This document shows, piece by piece, positions 27,201 through 62,560 of a DNA stretch of 64,000 nucleotides. A program made the translations under genes and the position numbers. How positions within the stretch are numbered: position 1 is the stretch's first letter; each line of letters begins with the position of its first letter. This DNA is from Isoperla grammatica. Taxonomy: Eukaryota; Arthropoda; Insecta; Plecoptera; Perlodidae. The DNA lies in contig OX246739.1 in the NCBI GenBank assembly GCA_945910005.1, positions 41,096,201-41,160,200 of the forward strand, read 5' to 3'. The notes beneath the pieces were generated by a model. It was not told where the DNA came from and did not search any database. It was given only the letters and a program-made list of their open reading frames with translations.

Positions 27201-30200
27201 CTTCACAACTTGATGACATGTTAACATACCTGTAATATTTCCCGTGTCACTGAAAATTTTTCCGGTGACAGGGGTGAACAAATCGTGGTGGTGTACATTA
27301 ACTATAAAAGCTTACTGATTTATATCTATCAATATATATATGTATATTTATTCAAAACCCCCAAAATTCCTTGCGAATGTAGGGTAGGTCGCACCCCGGA
27401 TTTTTTACTTTCAATTTTGAATTCTTTTTGCGACCTGCAATCGATTAAATACAATACATTCATATTCGTATGAACAGTTTAATATAGCTATTTTCTAAAA
27501 AAATCCCAAATATAGCTGTCACATCTTTGGTAGATAAGATACACAATTGTAACGTCAATTATTGTTGTACGTGCAATATACTATGTCGAGCAATATCCCC
27601 TCTTTGAATCGAGTAGTGATTATTGTTTTCAATTTTCAATGCACAAGCCATGTGGCACTGGCACATGATTTTAAATAGATTGGCTCAAATGTTGAAAGTC
27701 CACAATGGCAATCATACCATACAAGAGATCATAATGTAGGAATGCAATCGTTTTATGGACAATTTAGAAAGAATGTTCTTTAGAAGGTGACTGTTTGATG
27801 CTCTATGCATGTATGCACTTCAGGACTCACGAAATACCAATGTTTGATCAATTTATTTCGAAGCAAATAGTAATAAAGAAGCAATGTTCACTATATTGAA
27901 ACACTATAACAACAACACTATGTTGTGAACAAGAACAAGTGGCGTACCTTGAATGTACCCACAACCCTTGTGTCATCTTCAATATCGTCCCCACTTTTCT
28001 TCCCCCGGTAGAGGTTGAAGGAAAGCAACCACTCCTTGAAGCCGCTGTATTCGGGTTGCGACTCCAGCTCGTTTGGCAATATCTAGATAAAGCAACAAGA
28101 AAATTATATTACGAGACCGCGTTCTGCGGCGCGGCAGTCACGCTGATCTCTTTCTGGCCCAGTCCTTTATTTAAGCGCTCTCTGCCGGTCCAAAATTCGT
28201 CACGAAATTCGTCATGGAAGCTTGGTCTTATATCGCATACAGACTCAACAATTACTGTTAGACATTGGCTCCTGTTCTCCTTTTCAGCACGCAGATAGTT
28301 CTGTTCAGAAGTCATGCGTTTAGGTAGGGAATGCCATGACATCGTTTATTATACCTTGATGACTTGCTCAGCATGCAATTAGTTTCGTTGAACAGTCATG
28401 CGTTTAGGTAGGGAATGCCATGATATGGTTTATTAAACCTTGATGACTTGCCCAGCATGCAGTTAGTTTCGTTGAACAATCATGCGTTTAGGTAGGGAAT
28501 GCCATGACATGGTTTATTATACCTTGATGACTTGCCCAGCATGCAGTTAGTTTCGTTGAACAGTCATGCGTTTAGGTAGCGAATACCATGACATGGTTTA
28601 TTATACCTTGATGACTTGCCCAGCATGCAGTTAGTTTCGTTGAGCAGTCATGCGTTTAGGTAGGGAATGCCATGACATTGTTTATTATACCTTGATGACT
28701 TGCCCAGCATGCAGTTAGTTTCGTTTAACAGTCATGCGTTTAGGTAGGGAATGCCATGACATGGTTTATTATACCTTGATGACTTGCCCAGCATGCAGTT
28801 ATTTTCGTTGAACAGTCATGCGTTTAGACAGGGAATGCCATGACATTGTTTATTATACCTTGATGACTTGCTCAGCATGCAGTTAGTTTCGTTGAACAGT
28901 CATGCGTTTAGGTAGGGAATGCCATGACATGCTTTATTACACCTTGATGACTTGCCCAGCATGCAGTCAGTTTCGTTGAACAGTCATGCGTTTAGGAAGG
29001 GAATGCCATGACATGGTTTATTATACCTTGATGACTTGCCCAGCATGCAGTTATTTTCGTTGAACAGTCATGCGTTTAGGTAGGGAATGCCATGACATGG
29101 TTTATTATACCTTGATGACTTGCTCAGCATGCAGTTAGTTTCGTTGAACAGTCATGCGTTTAGGTAAGGAATGCCATGACATGCTTTATTATACCTTGAT
29201 GACTTGCCCAGCATGCAGTTAGTTTCGTTGAACAGTCATGCGTTTAGACAGGGAATGCCATGACATTGTTTATTATACCTTGATGACTTGCTCAGCATGC
29301 AGTTAGTTTCGTTGAACAGTCATGCGTTTAGGTAGGGAATGCCATGACATGGTTTATTATACCTTGATGACTTGCTCAGAATGCAGTAAGTTTCGTTGAA
29401 CAGTCATGCATTTAGGTAGGGAATGCCATGACATGGTTTATTATACCTTGATGACTTGCCCAGCATGCAGTTAGTTTCGTTGAACAGTCATGCGTTTAGG
29501 TAGGGAATGCCATGACATGGTTTATTATACCTTGATGACTTGCCCAGAATGCAGTAAGTATCGTTGAACAGTCATGCGTTTAGGTAGGGAATGCCATGAC
29601 ATGGTTTATTATACCTTGATGACTTGCCCAGCATGCAGTCAGTTTCGTTTAACAGTCATGCGTTAAGGTAGGGAATGCCATGACATGGTTTATTATACCT
29701 TGATGACTTGCCCAGCATGCAGTCAGTTTCGTTTAACAGTCATGCGTTAAGGTAGGGAATGCCATGACATGGTTTATTATACCTGGATGACTTGCTCAGC
29801 ATGCAGTTAGTTTCGTTGAACAGTCATGCATTTAGGTAAGGAATGCCATGACATGGTTTATTATACCTTGATGACTTGCCCAGCATGCAGTTAGTTTCGT
29901 TGTCAGTCATTCGTTTGAGTTGCGCATGCCAAGACACGTTTTACCTTCATGAGTGCTGTTTTTCGTGCGGGTATCCTCCTCATAGTTTTAGGACTCAGTT
30001 TGGACACGAACCGCGCTGCTGTCGCGGCTCCTTTCAAAGTATGCTTTTTGTTCTCCATGCTCTTGTCACTGCCCCTCCACGATAGGGGGCGATGGGGCTC
30101 ATTTGGGTTGTTAGCGGCTAAGTAGATGGCAAGGTTGCCATTCTGTTCAGTTTGGTGTTGAGCGGTCTCTTTCTTAGCTTCTTTACTTTCCTAGCATAGC

Positions 30201-61756: not shown

Positions 61757-62560
61757 CTAGGACAAGACATGCGTGTTACAGTGCGTGTGTGCGTGTCACG
61801 CACTCACTATCCCTTGGCGGCCGCTGCTTGCCCAGTCGTATCAGGCTGCGTACGCTCTTCAATGTGGAGCTCCTAGGACAAAACATTCGTGTTACAGTGC
61901 GTGTCACGCAGTCGCTATCCCTTGCGGCCGCTGCTTGCCCAGTCGTATCAAGCTGCGCACGCTCTTCAGTGTGGAGCTCCTAGGACAAGACATGCGTGTT
62001 ACAGTGCGTGTCACGCACTCGCTATCCCTTGGCGGCCGCTGCTTGCCCAGTCGTATCAGGCTGCGTACACTCTTCAATGTGGAACTCCTAGGGCAAGACA
62101 TGCGTGTTACAGTGCGTGTGTGCGTGTCACGCACTCGCTATCCCTTGGCGGCCGCTGCTTGCCCAGTCGTATCAGGCTGCGTACGCTCTTCAATGTGGAG
62201 CTCCTAGGACAAGACATGCGTGTTACAGTGCGTGTGTGCGTGTCACGCACTCGCTATCCCTTGGCGGCCGCTGCTTGCCCAGTCGTATCAGGCTGCGTAC
62301 GCTCTTCAATGTGGAGCTCCTAGGGCAAGACATGCGTGTTACAGTGCGTGTGTGCGTGTCACGCACTCGCTATCCCTTGGCGGCCGCTGCTTGCCCAGTC
62401 GTATCAGGCTGCGTACGCTCTTCAATGTGGAGCTCCTAGGACAAGACATGCGTGTTACAGTGCGTGTGTGCGTGTCACGCACTCGCTATCCCTTGGCGGC
62501 CGCTGCTTGCCCAGTCGTATCAGGTTGCGTACGCGCTTCAATGTGGAGCTCCTAGGACAA
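61690..62560. repeat. about 116-bp minisatellite, 8 acceptor copies, seeded at the exon 1 acceptor
   Basis: gagctcctagg-type words recur at 61751 and then at roughly 105-116 bp spacing up to 62547; the last four intervals are 116 bp. On the minus strand every unit carries cttgtcctag followed by gagctccacattgaag and about 70 bases of exon 1, then a GT/CA-rich spacer. Confidence 0.94.

Follow-up and report, generated by a model that had tools for sequence, protein, structure and literature searches.

Mirage-like minisatellites recur at exon–intron junctions of an otoferlin-like gene and of other genes in the stonefly Isoperla grammatica

Introners are splice-site-bearing repeats in introns, dispersed copies of one sequence. 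The minisatellites termed mirages, described from lancelets, are tandem arrays of 10-160 bp units lying across a 5′ or 3′ splice junction, with AG or GT present in many copies and with units that are homogenised inside the array (PMC3087553, PMC3902484). As presented in these reports, lancelet mirages leave splicing undisturbed (PMC3087553, PMC3902484). Tandem duplication is also a route to intron gain, in the Rogers model of tandem genomic duplication, as named in PMC3087553, and in the potato RdRp gene, as described in PMC4974935. Among the papers that searches of the open-licence literature listed, no title or opening lines of an abstract pointed to junction-spanning minisatellites in an insect.

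The window, the whole stretch of 64,000 nucleotides that was analysed (C7:41096201-41160200), contains an otoferlin-like (type II ferlin) gene; its exons were located by tblastn, using the otoferlins of other animals as queries. One exon matched otoferlin in the PDB (5.5e-33). Of the five nearest relatives of the draft protein, four come from insects and one from a snail, at 57-76% identity, with insect otoferlins ranking first. Otoferlins are the closest homologs and solved structures, and both C2 and Fer domains are present, as in a type II ferlin. The 5′ exons encoding the first C2 domain (C2A) were not found in the next 19 kb upstream. In the exon table, 12 of the 32 exons have one edge a few bases off the canonical splice site; the exon edges at the arrays are canonical splice sites.

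The gene and its surroundings have further features of their own. Two adjacent versions of a C2B exon, each with splice sites, are probably mutually exclusive. Intron 1 harbors two 903-bp direct repeats, 100% identical, that start with TG, finish with CA and are flanked by ATAT on either side; together with the DNA between them they look like a young LTR element; between the repeats, no frame on the minus strand exceeds 103 aa. Elsewhere in the window, an intronless ORF ends in CCIL, and we take it to be a complete Ras protein.

Table 1. Features of the window and of the adjoining upstream DNA (window coordinates, continued beyond the window for the last two rows; / marks the splice junction)
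Feature	Position	Strand	Unit and copies	Remarks
Otoferlin-like (type II ferlin) gene	21023..61756	minus		32 mapped exons, 4a and 4b counted apart
E1 array	61686..62560	minus	116 bp x 7.7	TRF; upstream of exon 1
Exon 1	61517..61756	minus		linker between C2A and C2B; acceptor CCTAG/GAGCTCC, donor GACG/gtaaga
E2 array	51060..52347	minus	105 bp x 12.4	TRF; upstream of exon 2
Exon 2	50927..51116	minus		acceptor CTGGCAG/GTCGC
E7 array	39515..40550	minus	64 bp x 16.2	TRF; upstream of exon 7
Exon 7	39366..39552	minus		acceptor CTTCCAG/GGCAAG
E8 array	37632..38036	minus	26 bp x 15.6	TRF; at exon 8 donor
Exon 8	38006..38220	minus		donor AACGAG/gtgagc
E21 array	28285..29916	minus	84 bp x 19.4	TRF; just past exon 21 donor
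Exon 21	29945..30190	minus		donor ATGAAG/gtaaaa
C2B exon, two versions	48464-48380 and 48235-48151
LTR-like element, intron 1	55601-60720
903-bp direct repeats	55601-56503 and 59818-60720
Intronless ORF, putative Ras	11511-12092	minus
Non-junction array	58603-58802		88 bp x 2.3	between repeats of the LTR-like element
Non-junction array	73679-79493		92 bp x 63 (5.8 kb)	upstream of mapped exons
Non-junction array	79848-80552		41 bp x 17	upstream of mapped exons

Five arrays adjoin exons of this gene. TRF arrays and tblastn-mapped exons agree with the initial annotation in placing them at exons 8, 7, 21, 2 and 1, on the acceptor side at exons 1, 2 and 7 and on the donor side at exons 8 and 21, so that both 5′ and 3′ boundaries are affected. 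All five extend to the intron side only, as had been proposed. The claim that each unit contains an exon edge and its splice site holds for exons 1, 2, 7 and 8, where nearly every unit carries 26-71 bp of exon sequence together with the splice site, and is weak for exon 21. In the acceptor arrays, the final copy continues directly into the coding exon. The splice dinucleotides AG or GT are retained in nearly every copy.

The units differ in their make-up. The E1 unit is composed of about 45 bp of intron, the acceptor and 71 bp of exon, and the copies of the exon 1 start match beetle otoferlin at 68-73% over 22 aa. The E2 unit has 47-48 bp of intron, the acceptor and 57-58 bp of exon, and CTGGCAG/GTCGC appears to be the only acceptor in reach that is in frame with exon 1 (phase 2). 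This array, with its unit of 3 x 35 bp and long open frame, was considered as a coding repeat and rejected, as the sequence reads an in-frame stop in two units and a further irregularity is a unit that lacks 10 bp. The E7 unit combines 26 bp of intron, the acceptor and 38 bp of exon, and all 16 junction copies end in AG. In the E8 array, the first copy is entirely exonic, most others contain GAG/GTGAGC and one contains GAGAT; in the intronic copies, a base is missing behind the GT.

The array at exon 21 is the weak case. By TRF it starts 28 bp into the intron, and its units carry AAG/GTA, with an exon-shared part of only about 8 exonic bp (TCATgAAG/GTA). When the piece of exon 21 from -20 to +28 was aligned to the unit, it beat 1000 of 1000 shuffles, whereas the 60 exonic bases alone gave no signal against the unit (P=0.60); the signal is mostly intronic. 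A 60-bp junction probe recurred with z 3.8 at exon 21, compared with z 35-53 at the other four junctions and with single values of z 4.4 and 4.6 at the array-free edges of exons 17 and 26. The real exon 21 edge has drifted from its array. An additional exon at 28320, underneath the 84-bp array, was considered and dropped, since in the otoferlin of a stick insect the sequence passes from exon 21 straight to 28082.

The arrays are unlikely to be an artefact of assembly. The assembly (874.58 Mb, with a mitochondrion of 16.16 kb) is a PacBio HiFi assembly of QV 55, made from 25.55 Gb in 2.94 million reads with a mean of about 8.7 kb, according to its published description (PMC13033136). The arrays span at most 1.6 kb, less than the mean read, and their units differ mutually. 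COX1 on the mitochondrial contig (16,163 bp) matches I. grammatica at 100% over 99% of its length, and two other Isoperla species reach 99%; a lancelet origin of the window, considered at first, was rejected on this stonefly COX1. As a separate observation on this assembly, COX1 has 25 additional matches on nuclear contigs, and some of these are fragments of a single copy.

The presence of five arrays in comparable places of one gene might suggest a mobile or dispersed repeat that inserts at splice sites or captures them, introner-like or transposon-borne. The units, however, are mutually unrelated, as had been read from the sequence: ten pairwise comparisons detected no kinship, and the best pair, E21 and E2, was reached by 1 of 100 shuffles. 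Four of the arrays clearly hold the coding sequence of their own exon. In addition, a 601-bp piece of the E7 array, the one array of the five that was searched genome-wide, matched only its own place in a search that skips very common words. By these unit comparisons and this one genome-wide search, the same sequence does not recur in many introns as an introner would, and we regard a mobile origin as extremely improbable.

Placement within the gene argues against coincidence. For each array, a single ancestral unit was placed randomly within the gene. The probability of spanning a junction was 0.05-0.20 per array, and all five would span one with P=3.4e-5, in line with the earlier view that chance was hard to credit. 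The earlier count of five of five stands for the long arrays with units above 10 bp in the window. It becomes five of six for the window and five of eight when the 19 kb upstream are included, and this larger region yields eight arrays at period ≥20 and score ≥150. For these eight, four strict junction arrays were found against 0.90 expected under uniform placement (P=0.007), and five when exon 21 is counted (P=0.0007). The three others lie off known junctions. The long 92-bp and 41-bp arrays upstream, covered by stretches L043, L078 and L079, were considered as junction arrays and set aside because no recognisable exon is present there.

To look beyond this gene, we searched the stonefly's own genome for the myosin head and kinesin motor families, with 85 and 132 matches, respectively. 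The core of the sample consists of 45 loci, from 30 of the 85 myosin and 15 of the 132 kinesin matches, to which 18 kinesin stretches further down the table, two extensions and three final myosin stretches were added. The 18 kinesin stretches skip amplified copies on contig C15 and some other rows; the last three myosin stretches are the next rows of the table, chosen before their sequence was seen. The exon list omits rows that are tandem copies of an exon piece. The sample thus covers two protein families, with exon edges taken from profile matches only, and the first look may favor loci with repeated exon pieces. The final counts leave out L077, which was chosen for a repeated row in the table. 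L063 was reached by following the table, yet its own repeated row had been noticed before fetching, and counts are also given without it. Because a placement as far as 35 bp off still counts as a hit in the expectation, the test is biased against the claim.

An excess at junctions over uniform placement appears in every count. An earlier count with a 12-bp tolerance, which included L077, gave 10 of 23 arrays against 2.75 expected (P=8e-5). The 48 merged stretches together measure 187,204 bp and hold 102 exon matches; there, 11 of 22 arrays, L052 included, were on an exon edge or within 35 bp of one, compared with 3.28 expected under uniform placement (P=5e-5). The last three myosin stretches contributed two arrays, one on a junction. 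Among the resulting 24 arrays (period ≥20, score ≥150), 11 include a junction, against 3.53 expected (P=1.6e-4 to 1.8e-4); the 59-bp array of L052 merely abuts an acceptor and is outside these 11, and counting it gives 12 of 24 (P=3.3e-5). Without L063, 10 of 23 remain (P=0.0007). The clear-cut count drops L068, with 5 exonic bp, and L071, which starts about 6 bp inside the intron, both weak like exon 21, and leaves nine of 24 (P=0.0041), or eight of 23 without L063 (P=0.013).

These numbers bear on the reading that arrays land anywhere and that a striking gene was picked in which five happened to lie at exons. The two long upstream arrays and the array in the LTR-like element are off exons, as are 13 of the 24 sampled arrays, in keeping with such a reading. 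Against it, the other genes show an excess over uniform placement in four counts (P from 0.00018 to 0.013), and we consider chance combined with choice of gene to be quite improbable. Recurrent tandem duplication across exon–intron junctions, suggested by the initial annotation, is supported both in the ferlin gene and in the sampled genes.

The sampled junction arrays resemble those of the ferlin gene in form. Eight of the 11 are at acceptors and three at donors. One kinesin gene has an acceptor array of 152 bp x 7 (GCAG/GGAGTACTGG, GVLEGYNSTVFAYGQTGCGK) and, at the exon match that follows, an acceptor array of 89 bp x 10.6. In one of the three last stretches, an array of 134 bp x 6 at a myosin acceptor also repeats an ACTAAT motif, which is branch-point-like. 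At the low end are two-copy duplications at junctions, whose copies match at 97-100% (TRF); copy numbers go up to about 20 in the ferlin gene, and one weak case elsewhere has at least 33 copies. Junction arrays occur at 5 of 32 ferlin exons; in the myosin and kinesin sample, roughly every tenth exon match has one (11 arrays, for the 102 matches plus three stretches).

Two pairs of genes have arrays at roughly corresponding places. In the paralogous kinesins L057 and L063, acceptor arrays occupy nearly the same position of an intron, ahead of VLxGFN or VLxGYN; in the myosins L018 and L036, the arrays are within a few codons of one another (NAKTVRNDNSSRFGK). Both pairs hint that arrays may arise repeatedly at particular sites. 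The family searches also returned amplified and clustered matches. Partial copies of the kinesin motor, covering profile 1-94 or 1-146, number in the dozens on contig C15; many form inverted pairs about 2 kb apart, and together they constitute an amplified kinesin-derived repeat. At C1:33475044-33479396, one segment of the myosin head is matched six times in close succession (profile starts 377-379), the pattern to be expected if a muscle myosin gene has alternative exons there.

Base composition was absent from the earlier interpretation, and GC-richness explains part of the enrichment. The median unit GC is 0.55 for junction arrays and 0.45 for the others; junction units are thus GC-richer, which makes composition part of the cause. 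Composition might even suffice if arrays are born in GC-rich, complex DNA, for which exons are the islands within genes, and exonic births are purged, leaving the survivors at exon edges. With GC matching, 5.19 rather than 3.28 are expected for the 22 arrays and 5.69 rather than 3.53 for the 24, and the strictest count, eight of 23, is not significant against it (P=0.098). The other counts nevertheless exceed the GC-matched expectation: 11 of 22 (P=3.6e-4), 11 of 24 (P=0.0021), 12 of 24 with L052 (P=2.8e-4), 10 of 23 without L063 (P=0.0064) and the clear-cut nine of 24 (P=0.041). At the ferlin region, with 1.59 expected, GC-matched P is 0.04 for four of eight arrays and 0.006 for five of eight. 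We give composition as the sole cause somewhat less than an even chance.

The arrays are probably mirages, that is, minisatellites born from tandem duplications that straddle an exon–intron junction and are tolerated, amplified and homogenised. A junction-spanning duplication would leave a complete exon with one splice site beside the exon body. Under exon definition, the proximal splice site wins, and on that principle the site nearest the exon body would stay in use. The remaining copies would be spliced out as intron, making the duplication near-neutral, while a duplication inside an exon would presumably be selected against. Once two copies are present, slippage or unequal exchange could expand and homogenise the array; the homogenised units point to such processes after birth. 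Exon edges may be favored partly as GC-rich, complex stretches amid AT-rich introns, and the preference probably has a second cause other than composition.

Variation inside the arrays gives some information on their growth. Divergence increases with distance from the exon clearly in E8 (rho 0.77), less so in E7 (0.49, P=0.065), and the trend is reversed in E1. In most arrays divergence shows no such rise, and outward growth from the exon is unsupported as a rule, the trend being clear only in E8. With the outermost units omitted, variable sites pooled over arrays amount to 55 of 436 in exon-derived and 52 of 261 in intron-derived sequence (P=0.012), and the exon parts are less variable in five of eight arrays. 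Strong conservation of the exon-derived parts, which an initial 11 of 13 arrays had suggested, was given up on this five of eight. The lower exon-part variation weakly supports repeated re-copying from the exon.

The same data bear on the suggestion that selection maintains the additional sites, either for functional redundancy of splice sites or for regulated alternative splicing. The retention of AG or GT in nearly all copies and the fewer variable sites in exon-derived parts would fit such a role. Use of the other copies, however, would often break the frame: the upstream acceptor copies at exon 7 would shift it, unit lengths modulo 3 are 0, 1 and 2, and three of the five arrays have a unit whose length is not divisible by 3. 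Lower exon-part variation in only five of eight arrays is modest, and re-copying of the exon could yield the same pattern. We find redundancy as a function, which had been raised earlier, very improbable. The other consequence raised with it, a link to intron growth, is borne out, as the five arrays add 5,236 bp.

A more speculative idea places the cause in mutation. In hyper-heterozygous genomes, splice junctions might act as mutational hot edges: with introns so different between homologous chromosomes, strand exchange and repair would find good homology in exons only, and intermediates would stall at the exon–intron border and give rise to tandem duplications across it. It is prompted by the extreme heterozygosity of both lineages, given as 3.14% for I. 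grammatica in the description of its genome (PMC13033136) and as 3.2-4.2% in accounts of lancelet genomes. We think this unlikely. If it were true, mirages would be general in species with several percent heterozygosity and would steadily feed both the growth of introns and the origin of splice sites.

Our preferred reading, that the arrays are mirages, gives the stonefly a place beside known systems. Two-copy births, long arrays and drifted edges are found in one genome, so that intronic DNA and spare splice sites can be observed as they arise, and measurable causes are suggested in GC-rich exon edges and extreme heterozygosity. The junction arrays are thereby material for the question of how introns grow and move. 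They share with Rogers-type intron gain a tandem duplication involving AG/GT sites; that process makes a new intron from a duplicated exon, whereas the stonefly arrays enlarge existing introns at their edges. Introners disperse one sequence, whereas each of the clear stonefly arrays has the sequence of its own exon. In the lancelet reports, normal splicing and haplotype or somatic instability are described, while the stonefly arrays are known from the sequence of one assembly. The stonefly units span the boundary with its splice site as lancelet mirages do, clearly at exons 1, 2, 7 and 8 and weakly at exon 21. They differ from them in the host, in copy numbers of up to about 20 in this gene and at least 33 in a weak case elsewhere, in the presence of five arrays in one gene and in a measured excess over placement controls. 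Structures of this kind, which the literature searches showed in a handful of lancelet genes only, are recurrent in this insect.
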